NCBI GenBank assembly: GCA_021414245.1
Contig: JAIOOU010000007.1
Coordinates: 124,001-188,000 of the forward strand
DNA length: 64,000 nucleotides
Origin: Chloroflexota bacterium
GTDB lineage: Bacteria > Chloroflexota > Anaerolineae > Anaerolineales > Villigracilaceae
Reading direction: 5' to 3'
Shown here: positions 15,055-31,129 of the stretch, one piece after another
Layout: each line of letters starts with the position of its first letter
Numbering within the stretch: the first letter of the stretch is position 1
Made by a program: the position numbers and the translations under genes
Notes under the pieces: generated by a model
What the model was told of the DNA's origin: nothing
Databases searched by the model: none
Seen by the model: the letters and a program-made list of their open reading frames with translations, nothing else

Positions 15055-17637
15055 TCAGGACAATGTAAAGTAAAACGTGGCGCCCTGGCCGGTCTGGGAT
15101 TCAACCCAGATGCGCCCGCCGTGCACCTCTATGATCCTTTTGACCAGTGCCAACCCTATTCCGGTGCCGGCGCTTTCAGCGGTAAGTTTGTCAAACAGGC
15201 CAAATATTTTTTCGTGAAATTCAGAGGCGATTCCCGTTCCGTTATCCTTCACATAAAATACGGTTTCACTCCGGTCGTTGCGAATGGCCCCGATCTCAAT
15301 TCGCGGACGGGGCTGGTTTCCCATGAATTTTATGGCGTTGTCGATCAGGTTTTGCATGACCTCGACCAGACGGACCCGGTCGCCTTTGATCACGATGTCG
15401 CTGCTTTCGTATTCGATGATCACATTTCCGGCCTTGATCTGTCCATGCACGATCTCAAGCGCATCCCTGACAATTTCGTTGAACGGGATTTCGACCGGCG
15501 TGTTCATCAACCTGCCGATGCGGGAGAGCTCAAGCAGGTCTTTGAGCAGGGTCTGCATTTTTTCCACGGCGGTTTCAATGCGCTGTTTGTCATGGTTAAG
15601 TTTTTCGTAATTGCCTTCGCGTGCATCTTTTTCCAAATAACCCAGAAAACCGCGAATGGTCACCAGGGGGGATTTTAGGTCATGTGAAACTGTATAGGTA
15701 AATCGCTCCAACTCTGCGTTTTTGGCTTCCAGTTCAATAATGAAATTCTGTCGTTGGACCAGTTCATTCTCCAGGGCCGAATTCAGGCGGGCATTTTCTA
15801 TGGCCAGCCCCGCATAGCCGGCAAACAACCGCAGAGCCTCCAACTGGGCATCTGTGATCGGACGTCCGGTGATCATATGGTCCACACACAAAACGGCGAC
15901 CGGCTTTTCCCCGGCCCAGGCTGCGATGGCGGCGAAATCCTTTGCGTCCGCCGGGATATCCCTGGCAGGCGGGCTGTGTTTATCTTCGTGTGTATGTGTA
16001 AGATAGATCGTGTTTGGTGTTTCAAGGACCCGTAAAAAGGGTGCCGACTCTGGGTTATCCTGCTTTATGGCGATCCAGGTATGCCACTCGTCTGTCATTT
16101 CGCCTTGATAATTCGTTCCAAAAGTCCCGTCCATGGAGTTGCGTTCGGGGTTATATAGATAAATTCCGGGACGGTCGAATCCCAGGTCATCATGAATCCC
16201 ATGCCAGATTCTCGTCAGGGTCGTCCGCAGATCGTTGACCTCGGTCACCCGCTGCCCGAGTTTAATGACCTTTTCCAGGATCTCGCGCCGCTGCTGTTCG
16301 AATTCCTCGGCCTTCTTCCGTTCCGTGATCTCGCGGGCGATGCCTGTGGTTCCGATCACCTCGCCATCTGCGTTCAGGATGGGGGATTTGATGGTCTCCA
16401 CCCAATACTCCCTGCCTGTGCTGTCGACTTGAAGTTCCTCGGCATATTTGCGTCGTCTGGTTTGGATCACCTCCAGATCGTCCTTACGGTATATTTCGGC
16501 ATAAGCAGCCTGCCAAATATCGAAATCGTTTTTGCCGGCGATCTCATCCATCTTCATTCCGGCTGTTTTTGCGAACTGCTCATTGACTGCGATATACCGG
16601 TGATTGGTGTCCTTCAGCCAGGCGATGTCAGGGATGCCGTTCAGAATGGCGGATTGTCTTAATAGAGTTTCGATTATTTTTTCTTCAGCAAGTTTTTCCG
16701 CGGTTGCATCCTGCACGGCACCTACAATACCCGTCAGCCGATTTTCCTTCTCGTTCCAGACCGGGTGCGCGAAAATGCGTTCCCAGCGGATCTCCCCGCT
16801 TTTTGTAAAGGTTCGAATTTCAGACCGGATATCCTTGTTGTTCTTCAAGGTTTCCATGTCCTGCGCGTCCCGGGCAATGTCATCGGGATGCACGTGAGCC
16901 AGCCAGCCGCCTTTGGCCACATATTCTTCAAAGGTGTAGCCGGTCATCGATTCAAATGCCCCGGTGACCCAGACCAATGTGATGCGGCCCTGTTCGTCCA
17001 CATCGCTGGCGAAGATGTAATCCGTGCTGACTCGCGAGATAAGACGATATTTTTCCTCGCTGGCGCGGGCACGGGCAAGGGAATATCTCACGTTGCGGGA
17101 GGCCAAATATTGCAGGACTGCCCCAACGGGAAAGAGCACGAGACTGACGACCCAGGTGGTTAAAGGTGAGCCATCGAAACCGAAAGCGGTTCCTTGCTGG
17201 ATATGAGCCCCCGCCATCCAGCCTCCTGCCGCCAGCGATAAAAAAGTGAACACTGTGGAGCCGCGCCCGCCCAAAAGGATCCCGGCAATGGCGATCACCA
17301 ATCCATATCCCAGCAAATAGGCTTCGCTTTGCACGCCGCCCGCTGTTGCTGCGGTAACGGTAAAGAAGAGCCAAAAGCTGCTTATTTGGAGTATGGACGC
17401 CGCATGCACGTATCCACGACGCAGCATGACAAGGAGAAATATATTAACTGTCTCCCCAAAGGCCGCCTGGATGAGCGTTCGTCCCAGGTTTTCAGGAGTC
17501 AGGAGCAGGGTATAGATGAGGAAAGGAATTGGAACACTGACAAGCACCCACAGGATGACATGCAAAATATAAGCCTGTTGGGTCTTGCCATCGTCATCGA
17601 AAACCGGAGCGATAAACAGTTTTTTCAGGGACTTCAT
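15055..17637 (-). CDS. membrane PAS-PAS-GAF sensor histidine kinase
   Basis: The 860-residue protein has about six N-terminal membrane helices (20-185), two PAS domains with PAC-like ends (about 195-315 and 325-440), a GAF domain (about 450-615), a HisKA domain with H652 (YTVSHDLKSPL) and HATPase_c (NLIDNAIKF, DNGTGI, GTGIGLALVK). No receiver domain is fused and no response-regulator gene is adjacent, so it is an orphan kinase. Its ATG overlaps the selB stop by 4 nt (ATGA), an unusual pairing with a translation factor. The ligand of the PAS and GAF modules is not readable from the sequence. Confidence 0.93.
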   Translation of the reverse strand: MKSLKKLFIAPVFDDDGKTQQAYILHVILWVLVSVPIPFLIYTLLLTPENLGRTLIQAAFGETVNIFLLVMLRRGYVHAASILQISSFWLFFTVTAATAGGVQSEAYLLGYGLVIAIAGILLGGRGSTVFTFLSLAAGGWMAGAHIQQGTAFGFDGSPLTTWVVSLVLFPVGAVLQYLASRNVRYSLARARASEEKYRLISRVSTDYIFASDVDEQGRITLVWVTGAFESMTGYTFEEYVAKGGWLAHVHPDDIARDAQDMETLKNNKDIRSEIRTFTKSGEIRWERIFAHPVWNEKENRLTGIVGAVQDATAEKLAEEKIIETLLRQSAILNGIPDIAWLKDTNHRYIAVNEQFAKTAGMKMDEIAGKNDFDIWQAAYAEIYRKDDLEVIQTRRRKYAEELQVDSTGREYWVETIKSPILNADGEVIGTTGIAREITERKKAEEFEQQRREILEKVIKLGQRVTEVNDLRTTLTRIWHGIHDDLGFDRPGIYLYNPERNSMDGTFGTNYQGEMTDEWHTWIAIKQDNPESAPFLRVLETPNTIYLTHTHEDKHSPPARDIPADAKDFAAIAAWAGEKPVAVLCVDHMITGRPITDAQLEALRLFAGYAGLAIENARLNSALENELVQRQNFIIELEAKNAELERFTYTVSHDLKSPLVTIRGFLGYLEKDAREGNYEKLNHDKQRIETAVEKMQTLLKDLLELSRIGRLMNTPVEIPFNEIVRDALEIVHGQIKAGNVIIEYESSDIVIKGDRVRLVEVMQNLIDNAIKFMGNQPRPRIEIGAIRNDRSETVFYVKDNGTGIASEFHEKIFGLFDKLTAESAGTGIGLALVKRIIEVHGGRIWVESQTGQGATFYFTLS

Positions 17638-19532
17638 CGGATCTTCAACTTCCTGAAATCGCCATCCCGGATCGTGATTCCGATGGTGTCCAGATGTTCG
17701 AGAAAGGCCTGGGCGTATTTGCGGGTGGTATTGAAAAGGTCGCGCACTTCAGCCAGGCTGATCTCACCACGTTCCTGCATGGACGCGCGAAGTCTGCCGA
17801 GCATCTCATCATAGTCCGATTTGCGGAAGATGACATCTGCAGAAACCGGGATCAATTCCTTTAATTCGATCAGCGCATTGACGACCTCCTCGCCGGCCTC
17901 CGCATGACACTCCTTGACGCTGGGCGGCGAATATGGATTGAGTTCAAATTTTCGCATCAACCCCCGGACCTGCGCCTGCTGACTGGTCCCAAACCGGATC
18001 CCGTGCCCGGCTTTTGCCACCCAATTTCCCTCTTCAATCACCAGGCCCCGTTTTGATAGTTGGGAGAGGACGGCATTATAGCTGCGCGGCACCATCTTGA
18101 GGCGGCTCTTCAATTCTTCGCGGGAAATACCGCGCCGCAATGGAAATTGTTCATGATATGTGCTGAGGGTCCGGTCAACGCGGTCCGTGATCTCGTTCCA
18201 ATGAGGCAGGGCCATGACAAGCAGGTCACTGGTTGTATTCACCTGACCGGCTTCCAGGGCGATCAGCCGGTCATTTTGCAGCAGGTCGTCCAGGGCTTCC
18301 TGTGCACTGACTGATTCCAGCCGGGATTTTGCCACGACTTCCCTCGCACCTGCGATGTTCAGTGCCAGTGCCGCCTCGAACAGGATGTCTGATGGGGAAC
18401 CCTGCATAAGAGCCTCGAAGGATTTGAGCACTTCCTCATCAAATCGTTTGTGTCTCCCCTTGGGTTGATGATCGATGATCAATCCACCGCCAAGGGTTTC
18501 ACTGGGAGAGGGCCGGCGCAGGATATATTTATCGCCGCGTACCGCCACAAGCGGATCGCGCATTTCGAGTTGGATCCAACCCTCCTCGCCGGGTTTTAAT
18601 TCCTCCGTGCCCAGCAGCCTCAAGGTTGCGATGGTTTCGCTTGCGCCTACAAAAAACTTGACTTCATCCCCATGCCTGGCAGGCAGCGAAGCGTCTTTGA
18701 GCAGACGAAAGCGGGCATCCACTCTTCGCGTTGCCTGGTATTGACCGGGATGAACCACCACTTCGCCACGTTGCACCAATTCCGTGTCAACTCCCGATAT
18801 GTTCACCGCAGTCCGTGATCCAGGCACGGCTGTTTCCTCTTTTCTCTTATGGGTTTGCAGTCCCCTGATCCTGCCTCTTAAACCGCCCGGCAGAATTTCC
18901 ACTTCATCGCCGATGCTGAGATGGCCGTCGTTGAGTGTGCCGGTGACCACGGTGCCGAATCCACTCATATTGAAGACCCGGTCGATCGGGAGGCGCGGCC
19001 GGTTAATATCCAATCGGGCGGGCTTTGATTCCAGGACCTTGCTGAGAGTTGTGATCAGCAGGTCCAGCCCGGTCCTGTTTTTGGCAGATACGCGTATGAT
19101 GGGTGCATTGGCGAGAACGGTATCGCTGACGGCACCACGAATGTCAATTTCCAGCAGATCAAGCCAGGTTGAGTCTGAGGCGATGTCCGTCTTGGTGAGC
19201 ACGATCAAACCGGCGGGTATCTGCAAAAGATCCAGGATCGCCAGGTGCTCACGTGTCTGGGGCATGACACCTTCGTCGGCAGCGATAACCAGCAGGGCTG
19301 CGTCGATTCCCCCGATGCCCGACAGCATGTTTTCAATAAAGTCGCGGTGACCGGGCACATCCACAATGCCCACCTCTTCCCCGTTGGGAAGGGTAAGCCA
19401 TCCGAAACCAAGTTCAATGGTCATCTCACGGGCCTGTTCCTCTTTGAGGCGGTCCGGATGTGTGCCGGTCAAAGCCGCAATAAGGGTGGATTTGCCGTGA
19501 TCTACATGACCTGCCGTGCCGATGACTCGCAT
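17634..19532 (-). CDS. selB: SelB, selenocysteine-specific elongation factor
   Basis: The 632-residue translation GTPase brings Sec-tRNA to UGA codons followed by a SECIS hairpin. Visible are GHVDHGKST (8-16), DVPGH (58-62) and TKTD (113-116), beta-barrel domains (about 175-350), and C-terminal winged helices ending in a segment with FNTTRKYAQAFLEHLD that is typical for SelB and absent from EF-Tu. The length fits SelB (E. coli 614). The frame opens at 19586, but the ATG at 19532 gives the canonical N-terminus. No selA, selD or tRNA-Sec is in the window. A TTAAAT box lies 6 nt before the ATG. Confidence 0.93.
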   Translation of the reverse strand: MRVIGTAGHVDHGKSTLIAALTGTHPDRLKEEQAREMTIELGFGWLTLPNGEEVGIVDVPGHRDFIENMLSGIGGIDAALLVIAADEGVMPQTREHLAILDLLQIPAGLIVLTKTDIASDSTWLDLLEIDIRGAVSDTVLANAPIIRVSAKNRTGLDLLITTLSKVLESKPARLDINRPRLPIDRVFNMSGFGTVVTGTLNDGHLSIGDEVEILPGGLRGRIRGLQTHKRKEETAVPGSRTAVNISGVDTELVQRGEVVVHPGQYQATRRVDARFRLLKDASLPARHGDEVKFFVGASETIATLRLLGTEELKPGEEGWIQLEMRDPLVAVRGDKYILRRPSPSETLGGGLIIDHQPKGRHKRFDEEVLKSFEALMQGSPSDILFEAALALNIAGAREVVAKSRLESVSAQEALDDLLQNDRLIALEAGQVNTTSDLLVMALPHWNEITDRVDRTLSTYHEQFPLRRGISREELKSRLKMVPRSYNAVLSQLSKRGLVIEEGNWVAKAGHGIRFGTSQQAQVRGLMRKFELNPYSPPSVKECHAEAGEEVVNALIELKELIPVSADVIFRKSDYDEMLGRLRASMQERGEISLAEVRDLFNTTRKYAQAFLEHLDTIGITIRDGDFRKLKIR

Positions 19533-19623
19533 GTCTCTATTTAACCACAATGTTATTATGAAAGGGGGGAATAAAATTGTCCTCAAGCGTGTTTATACAC
19601 CTGAGGACATGGAATGGCCGGGG

Positions 19624-20811
19624 TTATTTTTTTGTTTTTTTGCCGTGACCCATGATGCGTTGATAGGAAGTCATCCATTCATGCACGACGTTCATTAATT
19701 CCTGTAATTGCTTTTCGGTCGTGTCGGTGGTTTGATGCATCTGGTCCTGTAAAACCTGGGCGGCATCGTCGAATGAGGTCATGCGGGCCTCGGTCTTCTG
19801 TACATCCTTGCGAATCTCGCGGAACGACTCCTCTGAAGACAGGCTGTATCCTGTCCAGCGTTTTTGATCGTCCGCCTTAAAGCTGACCCATTCCTGGCGG
19901 ATGCGGTCCTCGGCCAGGCGTTGCATTTCGGTTACCTCGTTGATGCGGCGCTCCAATTTGGTGTTGAGTTCGAGGTAGGTTTCCTGGGCTTTTTTCGCGC
20001 CGCGCAGGGCCTCATCGAGCTGCTTTACCTGAGTATCCAGTTCCGCGGCCTCTTTTTGGAAGATGTCATATTTTTCCTTCCAATCCTTCCAGGCGCGGTC
20101 CCGGTCGATCTGGGCAATCGCCTGTTGTTCAAGGAAGGCGGTTTGAGCCTGTTTGCGCTCTAGCTCGGAGGAGATCAGATCGGTGAAGCGGTTTTCCATG
20201 TTGCGTATTGAGTCCGCATTCATGGCTGCCTTCTCCCGGCTTTCATCCACCCGTTTGCGCATGGCGGTGATCTCACCCTGTACATCCGTGATCCGTTTCA
20301 GGTCGTTTTTGCGGGTTTCCTCCACGGCTTTCAACGAATGCAGTACATCATCCTTGTAGCGCAGGGATTCGTCCACGCGCGTCTTGAGGTCACTGATATT
20401 TGTCAAAATTCGCTGGATCTCGTCGGTGCGTTCCTTGAGCTGCTTTTTCAGATCGGGGATATCCGCTGCTGATTTGAATTTTGATACGGTCAGGTTTATA
20501 TCGTTCAGTTCGGCCTGGATGCGTTTGGAGGTTTCCTGGTCCGCAAGCGCGCGGGTCTTTTCCTTGTCCTCGATCAGTTTGATGATGTCATTGCGCTGCT
20601 TGGTGATGATCTCCTCGAATTGTTCCATCCGCTTTGCGGCGGGTGTGATTTCCGTGAGTTGTTTGCTGAGGGATTTGATCTGTTTGGAAACAACACCCAC
20701 CGAAGACTCGGAGGTGACGAGGCGCGCATCAATCGAGGAAAGCGCCTCCGTATTTTCACGCTGCTGTTGATCCAGCCATTCAAGTCTTTTGACGATTTGT
20801 TCGAATTCCAT
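19624..20811 (-). CDS. long coiled-coil protein, unknown function
   Basis: The 395-residue hydrophilic protein is almost entirely heptad-like and rich in Glu, Lys, Gln and Arg. It has no signal peptide and no membrane helix, and ends in a basic KKTKK tail. Coiled coils probably span about residues 5-385. It has GGAGAG 5-6 nt before the ATG. It follows the three-gene antiporter-like cassette by 62 nt on the same strand and precedes selB by 91 nt. Coiled-coil proteins of this composition are hard to place; a structural or scaffolding role is a guess only. Confidence 0.8.
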   Translation of the reverse strand: MEFEQIVKRLEWLDQQQRENTEALSSIDARLVTSESSVGVVSKQIKSLSKQLTEITPAAKRMEQFEEIITKQRNDIIKLIEDKEKTRALADQETSKRIQAELNDINLTVSKFKSAADIPDLKKQLKERTDEIQRILTNISDLKTRVDESLRYKDDVLHSLKAVEETRKNDLKRITDVQGEITAMRKRVDESREKAAMNADSIRNMENRFTDLISSELERKQAQTAFLEQQAIAQIDRDRAWKDWKEKYDIFQKEAAELDTQVKQLDEALRGAKKAQETYLELNTKLERRINEVTEMQRLAEDRIRQEWVSFKADDQKRWTGYSLSSEESFREIRKDVQKTEARMTSFDDAAQVLQDQMHQTTDTTEKQLQELMNVVHEWMTSYQRIMGHGKKTKK

Positions 20812-20874: not shown

Positions 20875-22272
20875 TTACTGGCCGAGATGTTCGAAGAGGG
20901 CCGGCAGGTTCCTGATAAAGGGATGTAGAATCTGGGGGAACATTCCAAGAACGAACAATCCGATGATCCCAATGCCCAGCATGATAACCTGGGGCCAGTC
21001 TTCATTGATCTGCCACGGGACCTGCTCTTTCGCCATAACAAATACAGCCAGTGTCCTGATCGCGGCAATCAGCAGGCCGAGCAGGCCCAGGAATGCCCAG
21101 AATGAGATGAGCAGGGATTGGCCTGCCAGTTCCTGCCATAAGGCAATGCGCGACGGAAAGCCGGCCAGAAGAGGAAAACCCGTCATCGAAAGGTGCGCCA
21201 GAATCAGAGCTGCGGCGGCAAGGGGATGACTGCGTGCAATCCCCTGAAGTTCGCTGAAACGCAATGAGTAGACCCGGCGTTTAAGGATCGAGAGTGCCAG
21301 TGCCCATACGGCCAATTCCAAACCGCGGGGTATTAGAAGCATAAACGTAATACTGACCAGTTCAGAGGATGGCAAACTCATGGCAATGATAACCAGACCA
21401 ACCTCGGCAATGGCGGTATAGCCCATGATGCGGCCGATGTGCCGCTGGACTGCAGCGAAGAATCCCCCGCTGGCCACCATCATCACACCTGCCAATTGAA
21501 TGGTGCTTATTAATTGGGGCGTGTTGCGAATCCATGTATATTGATCCAAAAAGCCAAGGGCAAAGATCGCAGTAAAGGTTGGCAGTGCCCAAAGGAGAAA
21601 GCCCGTTACATAGGGTGAAGATTCCTCCATGAGCATGGGAATCCAGTTATAGAGCGGAAAGACGCCGAACAGGAAGGCAAATCCCATGCCCAGCATGGCC
21701 CCGGCCTGAGTGGTGGCGCCAAGGTCCCCGGGACTGGCTTCCACACCTGCCAGCATCCAGCCGGAAAAGAGGATGAACGGCATGGCAAGGGTTTGATAGA
21801 TCAGGAAGCGCACCACGCCTTTCCCGGGTTTTTGATAGGGGGGGACCAGCAGGGGAATGGTCAGCATCGCCGCGATCTCGATCAGCACGGCCGCAAAGAG
21901 AAACGGCTCCACCGCGATGGATGCGGTTAAAAGGGATACGATCATTAATCCGATCGAAACGAAACGATTGGCCGTGCCGGACGCATGGGTTCCAAAGAAC
22001 CACAGGGCCGCCAGACCATAGATCACGGCCAGCAGGGGGCCGTCAGCGGTATTCAGGACAAAGCTGCGCCCGAAGAACTGAATGGAGGATGATATCTTCA
22101 GTGAAATCGAGCCAAGTAAAAGCGCCACATCGATGGGAAAGACCAGCGCGACGATGGCAAGAATCGTTGCAAATGTTCCGCCTGCAAGGGGTGAATGGCG
22201 TTCGGGCAGGAACAGGAAGATCAGGATTCCCATCAGGAACGGGATCAAGATCCAGATGATGGGAGCGTTCAT
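20875..22272 (-). CDS. NuoN/MrpD-like proton-conducting membrane subunit
   Basis: The 465-residue protein has about 13-14 membrane helices and resembles the antiporter-like subunits of complex I, Mrp and hydrogenase-4. A Glu in VLIEIAAML sits where the TM5 Glu of the family lies. The usual TM7 motif (K-x-x-x-x-P-hydrophobic-H-x-W-L-P) reads FLFGVFPLYNWIP here, so the Lys and the His of that motif look replaced. It overlaps the next upstream gene by 4 nt (ATGA at 22269-22272). No Nuo redox subunit is nearby. It could be an ion-translocating module or a degenerate structural subunit. Confidence 0.8.
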   Translation of the reverse strand: MNAPIIWILIPFLMGILIFLFLPERHSPLAGGTFATILAIVALVFPIDVALLLGSISLKISSSIQFFGRSFVLNTADGPLLAVIYGLAALWFFGTHASGTANRFVSIGLMIVSLLTASIAVEPFLFAAVLIEIAAMLTIPLLVPPYQKPGKGVVRFLIYQTLAMPFILFSGWMLAGVEASPGDLGATTQAGAMLGMGFAFLFGVFPLYNWIPMLMEESSPYVTGFLLWALPTFTAIFALGFLDQYTWIRNTPQLISTIQLAGVMMVASGGFFAAVQRHIGRIMGYTAIAEVGLVIIAMSLPSSELVSITFMLLIPRGLELAVWALALSILKRRVYSLRFSELQGIARSHPLAAAALILAHLSMTGFPLLAGFPSRIALWQELAGQSLLISFWAFLGLLGLLIAAIRTLAVFVMAKEQVPWQINEDWPQVIMLGIGIIGLFVLGMFPQILHPFIRNLPALFEHLGQ

Positions 22273-22880
22273 GCCTGTTCCTCGGTGTCGGCAGGATAAA
22301 AACCGGCGATCAACAAATATGAACCGACGATGCCGAGTCCCAAATTTGTCACAGCAAGAAAACCCGCAACAAGAATGGAGCTTTCCACCGCGCCATATAA
22401 AATCTCGAAACCAGTCAACAGGGTTAATAATCCCAGGATCACCTGCAGAATCTCGGAAGTCACACCCAGATGTACGAGGCCCGCACCGATCAACAGCAGG
22501 CTGCCTGCAATGACCGGCAGACCGAGGCCGGGAATGGCTGCCTCGATCCGGGATGTAGTGCCGGCGGCGGCGAGTGTGACGATCAAGATCAGTACCACCT
22601 TAAACCATTGTCCGCGGGGCCAGAAGGATTCAACATTTTCCTCTTCCAGGTTGGATATTCCAAGGCGGGTCATGCCCAGTGCGGCAACCACCATCCAACC
22701 CGTGATCAGTTTTGCCGAGCCCATGGCAAAAGGCAGATGACGAGTGATCAACCAGAATGCGGCAAGGTATTGCGCTGCGAGTGCGCCCAGGCTGAACCGC
22801 CAGTCGCGGGTGATCAGAAGAGTGGTGGAGGTTGCCAGGATGAGGGCAACTGCGATCCAGGAAATGAAATTGATCAACAT
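22269..22880 (-). CDS. small antiporter-complex-like membrane protein (HyfE/NuoK-like)
   Basis: The 203-residue protein has about six membrane helices. One short soluble loop (NLEEENVESFWPRGQ, about residues 78-92) interrupts them. The C-terminal half (VILGLLTLLTGFEILYGAVE, then further helices) recalls the small hydrophobic subunits HyfE or NuoK that pack next to antiporter-like subunits. It is sandwiched between two NuoN/NuoL-like genes: 1 nt after the upstream stop and overlapping the downstream start by 4 nt. The three almost certainly form one complex. The family name is tentative. Confidence 0.7.
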   Translation of the reverse strand: MLINFISWIAVALILATSTTLLITRDWRFSLGALAAQYLAAFWLITRHLPFAMGSAKLITGWMVVAALGMTRLGISNLEEENVESFWPRGQWFKVVLILIVTLAAAGTTSRIEAAIPGLGLPVIAGSLLLIGAGLVHLGVTSEILQVILGLLTLLTGFEILYGAVESSILVAGFLAVTNLGLGIVGSYLLIAGFYPADTEEQA

Positions 22881-22881
22881 G

Positions 22882-24432
22882 CTAGCGGGAACCCTGTGTT
22901 AATAAGGAGACAAAAAGAACAATAAAGAGCAAGGTCCACATGATGCCGCCTTCGCCTTCAAGGACATCGGTGACCGTCTGGCCGATATTTCCAAATATGC
23001 GGTAAATCGTCCAAAAGCCTTGATAGATGGTGTTCAACCCGGAATCTGCGGGTGTCAGCCAGTGTGCCCGGACCGGGTTGAGAATGCGAAATCGTGGCGT
23101 TGCCCAGATCACCCCAAAAGTCAGGAGTGATACGATCACGGCCAGCAGCCATGCTCCGATCTGGCTTGAACCGTTCCAGCCGGCCAATCCCAATAAGACT
23201 TGAAAAAAGATCAGCATGAAAATCCCTGCCGGATACACGGTCCGCATCCAATTTTGCTGTGCATCCAGCGAGTCGCGGCCGGTCGGACGCAGGGCGTTGC
23301 GGATGAAACCAGCGGTCAGAAGAGCTTGAGCTACGACCACAAAGACTGTGAAAAATCCAAGCCTTCCAACCCAGGCACTGGCGGTTAAGGAGAAGGGCAG
23401 GGAGGACATGCTCCAGGCGCCGATCAACATGGCACGGTTAAGCCAGGTCTGCTGAACGGAGGCGAGAAAGAGGGCGCCGCCGACCAGGATGAGGGCACAA
23501 CCCCAGGCAACGACACCTGTTGAATTTCCGCTTAGCGCGGAAAGAACTGCCAGCGAGGCAATACCGATGATCCAATAAGGCCGGCCGGTTAATTCATCCG
23601 GTGCCCGCAGCCACATCCAGCCTCCATACAGGGAGGCGCCGACAGCCAGAATGAATAAAAACGGAGTAATGGAGGAGATCAAACTCTCCGCCGGTACATG
23701 TGCAAGAAGCACCAGACTGGAGGCGGCTGAGATCAGGCGGAGCGCGGTTCCGAAACCACGGCGCAGAGTGGATTCGGATGAATACGGTAAATGAAGAGGC
23801 AGCACTCCAAGGCGCAATCCGGCGGCGGCAACAAGGTATAGTCCCGAACCCGAAGCAATGGATTGAAAATCAAATATATTCCCCTGGGCAATACTGATAA
23901 TGCTGGCCCACAGGAGGAGACCGATGCCGAATGCGCGCGATGAAAAGGAGGTAACCACCTTTTCATTGGCAGCCGGTCCATCTACCGAACGTAATTGCGC
24001 GATCAGTTCAGTCATATCCAACGCCCCCCATATCATCAGTAATGTGAGGGGGTTGTCTGCGGTGACCGCCAGGATGCCGAGGCCGCCCAATGCAAGCGTT
24101 CCGGCCCAAGTCAGCGAGTTTGTGAAAGCCGGGCGTGCAACCGCAGTGAGCAGCACGGCCAGGGTCAATGCGCTGATACTTAAAGCAAAGGGCCATGAAA
24201 TATCATCCGCCCGGAAGAGGATCGGATTAATGAACAGGGTTCGCGGTTGCCAGGCAGGCAGGGCAAGGTCGAAAGGAGTCAGCGCCAGCCAGCCGTAAAC
24301 ACTGACCAGGGCCAGGATCGCCCCGCCCACGGCCAACAACCAGGTGTAGCGTGCATTGGGTTGGAAAATCCGCAAAAGTACCAATGCGAGCGCCGAGGCG
24401 AAAAGTAGAAAGCAGGAAATCAAGATCAACAT
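22882..24432 (-). CDS. NuoL/NuoM-like proton-conducting membrane subunit
   Basis: The 516-residue protein has about 14 membrane helices and is first in the three-gene cassette. The TM5 region reads MIWGALDMTEL, where the usual W-E has become W-G although acidic residues follow. The TM7 region reads LRLGVLPLHLP, matching the family K-x-G-x-x-P-hydrophobic-H with Arg for Lys. A C-terminal amphipathic segment and last helix (about 460-512) resemble the NuoL tail. On the - strand TACAAT at 24444-24449 lies 11 nt before the ATG, so the mRNA leader would be only a few nucleotides and I see no Shine-Dalgarno sequence. Confidence 0.78.
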   Translation of the reverse strand: MLILISCFLLFASALALVLLRIFQPNARYTWLLAVGGAILALVSVYGWLALTPFDLALPAWQPRTLFINPILFRADDISWPFALSISALTLAVLLTAVARPAFTNSLTWAGTLALGGLGILAVTADNPLTLLMIWGALDMTELIAQLRSVDGPAANEKVVTSFSSRAFGIGLLLWASIISIAQGNIFDFQSIASGSGLYLVAAAGLRLGVLPLHLPYSSESTLRRGFGTALRLISAASSLVLLAHVPAESLISSITPFLFILAVGASLYGGWMWLRAPDELTGRPYWIIGIASLAVLSALSGNSTGVVAWGCALILVGGALFLASVQQTWLNRAMLIGAWSMSSLPFSLTASAWVGRLGFFTVFVVVAQALLTAGFIRNALRPTGRDSLDAQQNWMRTVYPAGIFMLIFFQVLLGLAGWNGSSQIGAWLLAVIVSLLTFGVIWATPRFRILNPVRAHWLTPADSGLNTIYQGFWTIYRIFGNIGQTVTDVLEGEGGIMWTLLFIVLFVSLLTQGSR

Positions 24433-27606: not shown

Positions 27607-27671
27607 AATAGGTCGCTGGCCGGTTAATAAAGTGATATAACTTGCTGGATCTCCAACCTGGTTTGAAACCC

Positions 27672-29447
27672 ATGATGTCCATTTCCGCTTTCAAAGTGAA
27701 ATTACACCCTAAAAATCAGTCGAACAAAAATCACATTACACGCACAGGAAGCTTTCTCCTTGCCGTGACTTTTTTGTTGTCCGCCTGTCAACCTGCATTA
27801 TGGGGCACGCCTCTTCCGCCGCCGACAGCAGCCCAGCCGGCCGTCCCATCATCCGCCCTGCCGACGGATACGGGCGTGCCAATTGTTCTCACACCTGCGC
27901 CCCCCACGCAGACTTCAATGCCCGAGATTCCAGGCGCTTCAATGATCTTGGTTGGCCCGGCTATTCCTCCACTCCTGCGTGAGAAGTTCATGCAAAGTGG
28001 ATTGCAGATTTCAACATCCGTACAGGAAGCGAAGGGTCTGTCCGTGGATGTGGTCAGGCAACCCCAAAACGCAATCAATCTATCCACGTGGACCTTTGCG
28101 CTGGTGGCGCCTTTCCCGACCATTGTGGATGACATCACCTCCCAGGATCTTCTTTCCGCGTGGAATGCCTCCTCTTCAGGACCTTTTCAGGACATCCCCT
28201 TGCTCATGGATGAACCCACGCTGGCCACCTTGACAGTTGTTCTTGGACCGCCCGCAGACGGGGCGGTCCAGGTTGTCCCTGCGGACCAATTGCTTGGTGC
28301 TGCCTGGAATGAGATGCCGGCCTGGGCCATCGTCCCCTTTGAGACGATTGAACCCAAATGGAAGGTGTTGACCATTGATGGTCAATCGCCCATTCAAAAG
28401 AAATTTAACCCATCCACCTATCCGTTGATCGCCAGTTACCAGGCATCCTGTAACGAGCCTTGTTCCGTCTCCGTACCGCAGGATCTGTCCTTTGTGAATC
28501 GCGACCCGCAGAAACTGGCCACCGTGATCCTGACCGGTGTGACCGCCCTGGTCCGCGCCACCGCCGCCACGATGGATGCAAAAGGCATCCTGTACCCGGG
28601 CGAAGCCGTCCGCGACATCCTGCGTGAAGCGGACATTACTCATATTAATAACGAGGTTGCGTTTTACAACAAATGTCCTTCGCCGGATCCAAATCAGAAA
28701 GGCATGGTGTTCTGCAGTTCCCCGCGCTACATCGAATTGCTTACGGATATCGGCACCGACGTGATGGAACTCTCCGGGGATCATTTCGGCGATTATGGTA
28801 CGGATGCGTTTTTGGAAACCCTGGATATTTACCGGCAAAACAAGATCCAATATTACGGCGGCGGCTTGAATCTGGAAGACGGCCGCAAGCCCCTGCTGCT
28901 TGAAGTCAACGGCAACAAATTGATGTTTATCGGCTGCAATATTAAAAAAGCCTATGCCGGCGCGACGGACACCAAACCCGGGGCGGTCTTATGCGACTTT
29001 GATTATATGACCGCCCAGATCGCAGACTATCGCGCCCGGGGATATTTGCCCATCTCCACTTTTCAGTATAACGAACTGGATGTTCCAAAGGCCACCGAGC
29101 AGCAGGAGATCGATTTTCGAACCCTGGCTGACGCGGGTGCGGTCATTGTCAGCGGCAGCCAGGCGCATACTCCCCAGATGATGGAGTTTTACAAGGATGC
29201 CTTTATTCATTTTGGCCTGGGGAATCTTTTCTTCGACCAGGTACTCAAAGTGGGACGCAGTCCCAAGCAAAATGAATTCATCGACCGGCATGTCTTTTAT
29301 GACGGCCGCTATCTGGGCGTGGAACTGGTCACCGCCTTTCTGGAGGATTACGCCCGTCCGAGATTGATGAAACCGGCCGAACGGACAAAGTTCCTGGGCG
29401 ATTATTTTAATTACAGTGGCTGGGATTTCTTACAGGCCGTACCCTAG
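27672..29447 (+). CDS. CapA-like (PGA_cap) lipoprotein, copy 1
   Basis: The 591-residue exported lipoprotein has a signal peptide with lipobox LLSAC (about residues 31-40), a Pro/Thr linker and an N-terminal domain of about 240 residues that resembles a solute-binding fold. A CapA-type metallophosphatase-fold domain follows (about 265-580). Family landmarks are present but altered: ITHINNEVAF, LSGDHFGDYG where canonical CapA has NNHxxDYG, and GSQAHTPQ where it has GHHPHV. The metal site may therefore differ. The ending FGLGNLFFDQ is typical. I start at the first ATG (27672); a TTG at 27642 also fits. A paralogue follows 26 nt after the stop. Confidence 0.85.
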   Translation: MMSISAFKVKLHPKNQSNKNHITRTGSFLLAVTFLLSACQPALWGTPLPPPTAAQPAVPSSALPTDTGVPIVLTPAPPTQTSMPEIPGASMILVGPAIPPLLREKFMQSGLQISTSVQEAKGLSVDVVRQPQNAINLSTWTFALVAPFPTIVDDITSQDLLSAWNASSSGPFQDIPLLMDEPTLATLTVVLGPPADGAVQVVPADQLLGAAWNEMPAWAIVPFETIEPKWKVLTIDGQSPIQKKFNPSTYPLIASYQASCNEPCSVSVPQDLSFVNRDPQKLATVILTGVTALVRATAATMDAKGILYPGEAVRDILREADITHINNEVAFYNKCPSPDPNQKGMVFCSSPRYIELLTDIGTDVMELSGDHFGDYGTDAFLETLDIYRQNKIQYYGGGLNLEDGRKPLLLEVNGNKLMFIGCNIKKAYAGATDTKPGAVLCDFDYMTAQIADYRARGYLPISTFQYNELDVPKATEQQEIDFRTLADAGAVIVSGSQAHTPQMMEFYKDAFIHFGLGNLFFDQVLKVGRSPKQNEFIDRHVFYDGRYLGVELVTAFLEDYARPRLMKPAERTKFLGDYFNYSGWDFLQAVP

Positions 29448-29473: not shown

Positions 29474-31129
29474 ATGAAAAAAAACCTTTTAACCATAATT
29501 TTTTGCATCCTACTCGCCGCTTGCGCCCCCGCCACGGATCTGCCGGCGGCCGTTGCCACTGAACCGGCTCCGACTGCAACGCTCTCCAATACACCCATGC
29601 CGGAGGCTTTATGGATCGGTCCCGCGGTTCCGGCTGACCTGCTGATTGCTGCAAAAACATGGAATATTCCTGTCACAGACGACCCGTCTCTCGCGACTCA
29701 ACAACTCAATGTGGCGGATTCGGGCTCCGTGTGGATCTACGCCCTCGTTGCCCCCTTTCCGACCGTGACGGATGATGTCTCGTTTGCAGATCTGTCCTCA
29801 GCCTGGAAAGGCGTTCAAGCGGGACCTTTTGCCGGGCATGCGCTTCTCATGGCACAGTCCACGCTGGAGGCTTTCACGGCTCTTTGGGGCGAACCCGCTT
29901 CGGGCGCGGTCCGAGTCGTTCCGTCCGATGAGCTGGTGGACACCGCCTGGGCGGAAATGCCGGCCTGGGCGATCATCCCCTTTGAGGAGATCCAGCCCAA
30001 GTGGAAAGTCTTGAGCGTGGACGGTCAGTCTCCCATTCACAAGAATTTCAATGCGGATGTTTATCCGTTGAAGGTGACCTTTGGTTTGACCCATCCCGGG
30101 GCATTTGTATTGCCGGAATCGAACCGCGACCCATCCAAGCTCGCCACGGTGGTGTTGACCGGCGTCACTGCACTGGTGCGCGCCATCGCCGCGACCATGG
30201 AAGTGAAGGGCGTCACCTATCCCGGGTCACTGATTGGTGACTGGCTGCGCGAAGCGGATGTGGCGCATGTCAGCAATGAAGTCCCCTTCGATGCGGCCTG
30301 TCCGACCCCGAATTACAGCTATACAAACCTGGTCCTGTGCAGTGACCCGAAGTACATGGAACTGTTCCTGAACGTCGGCACGGATGTGATCGAATTGACC
30401 GGTGACCACTTTGCCGATCGTGGCGTGAACGCCATGCTCGATACGCTCGCCTTGTACAAGGCCAACAACCTGCCGTATTACGGCGGCGGTGCCAATGAGA
30501 CCGAGGCGCGCAAGCCCCTGCTGATGACGGTCAACGGGAACAAGATCGCCTTCATGGGCTGTAATGGGAAGATCAAATATCCCAAGGCCACGGATACGAT
30601 CCCCGGTGCGGCACGCTGTGATTACGATTTCTTTGTGCAGCAGGTGAAGGATGTCAGGGCGCAGGGCTACATGGTGATTTTTACCTTTCAGCATGAGGAA
30701 TGTTATTTTGCCGGACCCTGCTACACCCATACGGAGGGTTTCCATAAAGTGGCGGATGCTGGCGCCACCATTGTCAGCGGGAGCCAGGCGCATTTTCCGC
30801 ACATCATGGAATTTCGCGGCGATTCATTCATTCATTACGGGTTGGGAAACCTGTTCTTCGACCAAATGAAATACATTCTTCCGGATGGCACCTCCATTGA
30901 CGGGACCCGCCGTGAATTCCTTGACCGGCATGTTTTTTACAACGGTCATTACCTGGGTGTGGAATTGTTGACGGCCATGTTGGAGGATTACTCCCGTCCG
31001 CGCCCGATGACTGAAGTCGAGCGGACCGAATTCTTAAGTGAATACTTCAATTTGAGCGGCTGGACTCCGCTGTCGCCAACCCCCATTCCGCAGCCCACGG
31101 TAACCCTCACTCCGATCGCTTTGCCATAG
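29474..31129 (+). CDS. CapA-like (PGA_cap) lipoprotein, copy 2
   Basis: The 551-residue paralogue of the preceding gene is collinear along its length. Examples are WAEMPAWAIIPFEEIQPKWK against WNEMPAWAIVPFETIEPKWK, LTGDHFADRG, and GSQAHFPHIMEF with YGLGNLFFDQ. It has a shorter signal peptide with lipobox LLAAC (about residues 13-17). The tandem duplication suggests related but separate roles at the cell surface, perhaps in polymer handling as for CapA/PgsA of polyglutamate capsules, although no capB or capC is present. The C-terminus carries a Pro/Thr-rich tail. AGAGAG lies upstream of the ATG. Confidence 0.86.
   Translation: MKKNLLTIIFCILLAACAPATDLPAAVATEPAPTATLSNTPMPEALWIGPAVPADLLIAAKTWNIPVTDDPSLATQQLNVADSGSVWIYALVAPFPTVTDDVSFADLSSAWKGVQAGPFAGHALLMAQSTLEAFTALWGEPASGAVRVVPSDELVDTAWAEMPAWAIIPFEEIQPKWKVLSVDGQSPIHKNFNADVYPLKVTFGLTHPGAFVLPESNRDPSKLATVVLTGVTALVRAIAATMEVKGVTYPGSLIGDWLREADVAHVSNEVPFDAACPTPNYSYTNLVLCSDPKYMELFLNVGTDVIELTGDHFADRGVNAMLDTLALYKANNLPYYGGGANETEARKPLLMTVNGNKIAFMGCNGKIKYPKATDTIPGAARCDYDFFVQQVKDVRAQGYMVIFTFQHEECYFAGPCYTHTEGFHKVADAGATIVSGSQAHFPHIMEFRGDSFIHYGLGNLFFDQMKYILPDGTSIDGTRREFLDRHVFYNGHYLGVELLTAMLEDYSRPRPMTEVERTEFLSEYFNLSGWTPLSPTPIPQPTVTLTPIALP

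Follow-up and report, generated by a model that had tools for sequence, protein, structure and literature searches.

A three-gene membrane cluster in an Anaerolineales genome

We analysed a stretch of 64,000 nucleotides (hereafter the window) from a Chloroflexota bacterium of the order Anaerolineales (contig JAIOOU010000007.1, positions 124,001 to 188,000), in which three adjacent genes, designated A, B and C, are predicted to encode membrane proteins related to the antiporter subunits of complex I. The source genome comprises 3.87 Mb and is 98% complete, with A-B-C on its contig C4. An earlier note, made from the letters of the window alone, had proposed a module of two NuoN/NuoL-like proteins flanking a HyfE/NuoK-like small subunit, and minus-strand open reading frames (ORFs) were found exactly where it had put them. 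B and C share 4 nt, and A and B are separated by 1 nt. The genes, together with the codons of residues in transmembrane helices (TM) discussed below, are as follows.

22882..24432, minus strand: gene A, 516 aa, membrane protein with a predicted NuoL fold (ORF, AlphaFold2 model, Foldseek, VIA)
24016..24018, minus strand: Asp139 codon of A (TM5), in 38/38 order-type rows
23812..23814, minus strand: Arg207 codon of A, corresponding to the TM7 Lys of NuoL (K229), in 38/38 order-type rows
22269..22880, minus strand: gene B, 203 aa, predicted 7-helix small subunit, N-terminal half weakly MbhD/NuoJ-like (ORF, AlphaFold2, profile match)
22710..22712, minus strand: Lys57 codon of B, aligned to the Glu of the MbhD motif
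20875..22272, minus strand: gene C, 465 aa, NuoN/NuoM-like antiporter subunit (PF00361, NuoN model, profile matches)
21148..21150, minus strand: Arg375 codon of C, corresponding to the TM12 Lys of NuoN (K395)

On reading gene neighbourhoods, the same order and orientation of A-B-C was seen again in many families, indicating that the cluster is more than a chance arrangement. We infer that the three proteins may form one complex.

Gene A alone matched no Pfam or NCBIfam family (the only rows were at E 0.12 and 0.27), and a Pfam scan of all 23 members of its alignment returned no family common to two of them. Its alignment was negative against E. coli NuoL, NuoM, NuoN and the Hyf proteins in hhalign, and its profile retrieved from the PDB sequences only two weak matches, both to one unrelated protein. 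The AlphaFold2 model of A (predicted local distance difference test, pLDDT, 81; predicted template modelling score 0.84) matched complex I NuoL chains in Foldseek with an E-value of 1.7e-11, a chain of an MrpA-MrpD model ranking third, and VIA aligned 478 of the 516 residues with complex I NuoL (Z 34.4, root-mean-square deviation 5.5, 14% identity). A relative of A that has canonical residues, at locus L152, provides an intermediate (hhalign probability 81%, E 1.2e-5). Judged by its model and this intermediate, gene A is a NuoL-fold protein.

Gene C is, by its sequence matches, a NuoN-like antiporter subunit. It matches Proton_antipo_M (PF00361) over residues 190-386 with an E-value of 5.3e-14, and its profile reaches MBS and NuoN chains at E 1e-26 to 8e-24; its scores against the NuoN and NuoM models lie far below the cut-offs of those models (NuoN model E 3e-17). 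The assignment of gene B is looser. Neither the protein itself in Pfam/NCBIfam nor the members of its alignment in a Pfam scan gave a usable family (nothing common to two members), and its 7-helix AlphaFold2 model (pLDDT 90) found no PDB match at E 0.001 or better in Foldseek and none at Z 8 or more among the VIA rows listed. The best match was MbhD of the Pyrococcus MBH (6cfw chain D; E 0.0083), which covers positions 8-88 of the wide profile in the N-terminal half, while the last part alone of the profile met an MrpC-type chain at E 9.4. B stands as a small membrane subunit, for which the HyfE/NuoK label is weakly supported, hhalign giving about 1% probability and no match against E. coli HyfE and NuoK; B is perhaps NuoJ/NuoK-like.

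Replaced and conserved ion-path residues

The earlier note had pointed to W-G in place of W-E and to an Arg in TM7, and both were found in A: W135-G136 replaces W-E, Asp139 lies one turn further and Arg207 occupies the position of the TM7 Lys. Compared with E. coli NuoL, three residues are missing from the window A, namely the TM5 Glu, the TM8 His and the TM12 Lys, and Arg stands in for the TM7 Lys. TM5 Glu and TM7 Lys occur together in 2 of 70 A rows, those of L152 and L198 (two rows are gapped there). Because Asp139 and Arg207 are each found in 38/38 order-type rows, the change cannot be called random, and the alignment indicates that the TM5/TM7 ion pair of A is rewired into a fixed Asp/Arg pair.

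Gene C follows a different pattern: the predicted absence of a TM7 Lys was borne out (Lys in 0/89 rows, Arg in 20), but the TM5 Glu is kept in the window (Glu136), as it is in 30 of about 42 order-type rows and 36/89 rows overall. The TM12 position of C carries Arg or Lys in 34/39 order-type rows. In B, Lys57 faces the MbhD Glu in the profile alignment, with Lys at this position in 34/40 order-type rows and 63/87 wide rows, and Glu in 4/87. The middle lysines are gone, and C has conserved buried charges of its own (Arg406 in 39/39 rows; Glu290, acidic in 33/40; Arg316, 34/40). Given the pair fixed in A and these charges in C, the module is not decaying. A pseudogene or relic was ruled out by the conserved residues and by purifying selection, the ratios of nonsynonymous to synonymous substitution being 0.03-0.18 (eight closest pairs per gene: A, 0.05-0.14; B, 0.05-0.18; C, 0.03-0.10).

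That the fold matches of A include Mrp chains, that the subunit set resembles MrpA-like, small and MrpD-like subunits, and that the module is near-universal in the sampled order could all point to a minimal Mrp-like cation/H+ antiporter serving pH or Na+ homeostasis. We consider this unlikely, as the TM7 Lys is missing from every one of the C rows, A combines TM5 Glu with TM7 Lys only in the two rows named above, and no Mrp small-subunit model was among the rows shown for A, B, C and the downstream neighbour D (for C, 25 of 36 NCBIfam rows were seen). The absence of an Mrp partner, claimed by the earlier note, thus stood within these rows.

Distribution of the module

Apart from one contig scan with a single protein, searches were confined to the phylum. 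With C, 33 loci were retrieved at 53-78%, with one at 34%; they carry labels of Anaerolineales, Anaerolinea, Chloroflexi and a few others. Where the contig extends far enough, D and then selB come after C and, with the exception of L071 for this gene alone, DUF3048 is found upstream on the opposite strand. A single A sequence as query matched 49/61 genomes, its own included, while the A profile matched all 24 order members in a 301-genome sample at E below 1e-43. The B-family profile matched 116/400 phylum genomes, which divide into 34/35 of the order, 18/20 of the rest of the class and 64/345 others, some of them weak. Family f9 has one more antiporter-like gene (784-798 aa) at a distance of about 5 kb from A-B-C (L081:1199-3595, L086:14387-16741); in family f70 (L199-L203), A-B-C is preceded by another gene, presumably, from its sequence, a prolipoprotein diacylglyceryl transferase.

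No redox partner found in the genome of the window

Pfam/NCBIfam scans and genome-wide family searches agreed with the earlier note in finding no local Nuo, hydrogenase or DabA partner. DabA (PF10070) had no match in the whole genome, and was found in 2 of 15 genomes searched (one of family f35, one of f71). PF00361 gave ten hits in the genome of the window, and PF00346 two loci, PF01058 three and PF00146 two. A full Nuo set lies on contig C7. A NuoB-CD-ferredoxin set lies at C1:240-243 kb, while genes for NuoH, J, K and L stand at the end of contig C9 and a further three antiporter genes at that of C1; these two contig ends probably join. This arrangement matches the split 2M complex I of Chloroflexi with doubled NuoM, as described in excerpts of the published account (PMC7117926). 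At locus L178, too, the NuoB-CD-I genes of the 2M complex I lie apart from its membrane genes. The third PF01058 gene belongs to a cluster that resembles a soluble hydrogenase by ORF sizes, only that gene having been family-tested. The NuoD, NuoB and NuoH copies found in the genome thus fit other sets, namely the full Nuo, the split 2M complex I and the hydrogenase-like cluster. The peripheral arm at C1:240-243 kb was considered as the missing partner of A-B-C and is unlikely to be so, its membrane genes probably being those at the C9 and C1 ends. No large, small or NuoH-like subunit was found in the window cluster, and the families searched gave no spare copy in the genome. The possibility named in the earlier note, that A, B and C are ordinary members of a complex encoded elsewhere in the genome, was looked for and left no sign.

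A related proposal would have A, B and C serve either of the cell's two complex I enzymes as additional or alternative membrane subunits, and partial text of PMC7117926 lends it some room, the NuoB-CD-I genes of the 2M enzyme being separated from its membrane genes. We regard it as very improbable, since both sets own NuoL, M and N-type genes, and A-B-C keeps a gene order and has redox-bearing relatives that are not those of complex I.

In the 59 loci lacking NuoD, no fourth partner spanning families was found. The commonest neighbours were D (23), selB (19), a gene we take from its sequence to be dihydropyrimidinase-like (11) and a 192 aa gene (11), followed by a 330 aa gene (9) and a 921 aa gene (7). 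This result bears on the idea that the antiporter fold is used as a structural or regulatory membrane scaffold, a platform for assembly, supercomplex formation or signalling with no ion flow. Such a role would account for the loss of the middle lysines, of the terminal Lys in the window A and of the TM7 Lys of A in favour of Arg, which deprotonates poorly, as well as for the persistence of B-C alone in family f16. Nevertheless, the buried charges are conserved rather than dispersed (Asp139/Arg207 of A; Glu290, Arg316 and Arg406 of C), and the 59 loci offer no common partner; a scaffold is doubtful, if still a serious candidate.

Relatives carrying redox genes

The absence of redox partners named in the earlier note does not extend to relatives elsewhere in the phylum. 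Reading the neighbourhoods with hidden Markov models (HMMs) placed a NuoD-like gene before A at 20 loci of five families (f35, f45, f71, f74 and f92); a NuoB-like gene accompanies it at 9 of these, and a putative NuoH-like gene (H) at 16. Eight of the 20 contain NuoD, A, B, C, NuoB and H genes (L193 and L197 by hit lists), eight contain NuoD, A, B, C and H, and three NuoD, A, B and C; at L198 the genes are NuoD, A (called by place), B, C and NuoB. Loci with A-B-C and without NuoD, NuoB or H include those of the order and of f17, f19, f21, f39, f67 and f70, some A being assigned by place, and B-C alone is found in f16, f26 and f36.

Three NuoD-like proteins tested against Complex1_49kDa gave 9e-27 to 6e-35. 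The protein of L151 matched HycE of FHL (9e-37) and MbhL (1e-35) along almost all of its length and ahead of complex I NuoD, which it matched at 1e-26 and to residue 290 only. All four [NiFe]-motif cysteines are present in 12 of the 20 NuoD-like proteins; of the nine NuoB-like proteins, seven have four cysteines, that of L197 three and that of L198 none.

At L151 (5389-11740, minus strand), six genes make up a minimal group-4 hydrogenase-like set whose small subunit has about 120-150 aa, and similar sets are seen at L192, L194, L195 and L196; in the titles and abstract openings found, no such set was described. A NuoB-like protein without any Fe-S cysteine is encoded at L198:6690-7178 (f92), where the NuoD-like protein of the same cluster keeps four.

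Redox-bearing and redox-free loci have the HMM families and gene order of A-B-C in common, with A linked through place and through L152; direct sequence matches of A are weak. In the C tree, 72 family rows were split from seven outgroup rows with a support of 99, and the NuoD-bearing rows form one clade (SH-aLRT 93 by a quick method, with long branches flagged). As relatives in the phylum carry redox partners beside A-B-C, the module looks, from these comparisons, like a reduced old complex rather than an assembly from nothing. The interpretation in the earlier note is supported in part, namely for an antiporter-like module with replaced key residues.

The neighbouring coiled-coil gene

Downstream of C, the following features are found.

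19624..20811, minus strand: gene D, 395 aa, soluble coiled-coil protein, membership of the module doubtful
19578..19609, minus strand: terminator-like hairpin of 13 pairs, directly 3' of D, at the start of the selB ORF
17634-19586: selB (selenocysteine elongation factor SelB), next to D

D was found in 24/24 order members and, at E below 1e-40, in 12/14 others of the class. It adjoins A-B-C in many order loci and is 35% identical even in L071. This synteny, together with the hairpin after D in the window, could suggest that A-B-C and D form a force- or signal-transducing machine, and the earlier note had considered D as a partner. However, D abuts selB in 28/32 loci with A-B-C near and in 8/9 without (36/41 in all), these nine having been selected for separate A and D hits or for lack of an A hit. 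In loci of f16, f17, f19, f20, f39 and f70, A-B-C or B-C has no D next to it. An obligate fourth partner is therefore not what D appears to be, and the proposed machine is quite improbable. As D and selB travel together whether or not A-B-C is near, D belongs at least as much to selB as to A-B-C; it is possibly a SelB-linked factor of the class. The window has 13 terminator-like sites where 5.9 are expected, one of them the hairpin after D; a stricter scan of 42 D-selB gaps found a terminator-like site in 10, the gap of the window being negative. Elsewhere in the window, tandem plus-strand genes (27642-29447 and 29474-31129) encode products that by eye appear similar and lipoprotein-like.

A probable membrane arm without an electron-transfer arm

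We are fairly confident that A-B-C is what its matches indicate and that it is free of redox subunits. The overall reading, descent and mechanism included, we judge to have about an even chance. In it, A-B-C represents a conserved membrane module of the complex I/group-4 [NiFe]-hydrogenase superfamily that works without an electron-transfer arm. Its ancestor would most likely have been a six-subunit group-4 hydrogenase-like complex from which the large, small and putative NuoH-like subunits were lost, the corresponding genes still standing beside A-B-C in related families and missing here. Loss rather than gain is suggested by the consideration that three genes working together in a known complex should drop out one by one more readily than they would be acquired next to fitting membrane genes, and by the NuoB of L198 without cysteines. 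What remains would be a passive, membrane-potential-dependent ion conductor or exchanger with A as gate and C as conduit; this mechanistic step, taken alone, we offer tentatively, as somewhat short of an even bet. In excerpts of one report, isolated antiporter subunits of complex I conduct protons under gating by the TM5/TM7 ion pair, and removal of the middle or terminal charged residue blocked conduction (PMC11496545).

Several points weigh against this reading. With conduction blocked by such removals in the excerpted work (PMC11496545), canonical proton conduction is disfavoured here, and, by analogy, conduction may be impossible for the window A, which is without counterparts of those residues. 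NCBIfam ranked NuoD models ahead of hydrogenase models for the large subunit. The H gene resembles NuoH/HyfC weakly (hhalign P 0.013 over 209 columns), and its single sequences gave no match. The base of the C tree does not separate the histories, one gain of NuoD being as short as several losses. Finally, an unlinked partner from a family outside those searched could exist. On balance, we read the module as a membrane arm free of redox subunits that probably arose by loss of a redox module and that may serve as a gated ion-translocating or a scaffold complex.

A bolder version, which we hold to be rather unlikely, would count A-B-C, after Mrp and DAB, as the third branch of the complex I superfamily that does without redox subunits. 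Here, stepwise loss of a hydrogenase-type redox module would have gone with re-poling of the buried axis (Glu to Lys in B, Lys to Arg in A and Lys to Arg in C), yielding anion transport or a potential-gated valve instead of proton pumping.

Relation to known systems and significance

One close likeness is to the group-4 [NiFe] hydrogenases (Hyf, FHL, MBH) and Ehr, which have NuoL-like, small and NuoN-like subunits; the homologous membrane arm was found in A-B-C, and phylum relatives have a HycE/MbhL-like large subunit beside it. Unlike these enzymes, the window and the order loci read have no large or small subunit beside A-B-C, and the ion-path residues are replaced. Mrp is likewise a redox-free set of NuoL/NuoN-fold subunits, but the present cluster has three genes only, with no MrpB, E, F or G type and with the key Lys/Glu missing (the genome elsewhere was not searched for Mrp families). 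Complex I, including the 2M form of Chloroflexi, belongs to the same superfamily and has the fold of A and C. It differs in that two such sets exist elsewhere in the genome, both equipped with antiporter subunits of their own, and in that the A-B-C cluster is without NuoB, NuoD and NuoH and has Gly136/Asp139 and Arg207 in A. The DAB inorganic carbon complexes use a NuoL-like subunit redox-free, and differ from the present case in their DabA, for which the genome has no match.

The titles and abstract openings found in the literature do not describe the module A-B-C. Partial texts of the paper on the Chloroflexus aurantiacus genome and of a study on C. aggregans mention two complex I clusters only, and those of PMC12361115 and PMC6349859 describe no such module. 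The superfamily is known and has redox-free members in Mrp and DAB; what is new here is a variant of that kind.

A standing question is how the two halves of complex I, membrane and redox, were joined and what each does alone. The phylum displays graded forms built on one gene core, ranging from hydrogenase-like sets of six genes to a mere pair of membrane genes, and in one order an apparently fixed change of the ion-pair residues. These are naturally occurring variants with which to ask what residues turn an antiporter subunit into a pump. The findings suggest that the membrane arm can persist through most of a bacterial class with no electron input, and that pumps of this type may lose their engine and be put to another use.

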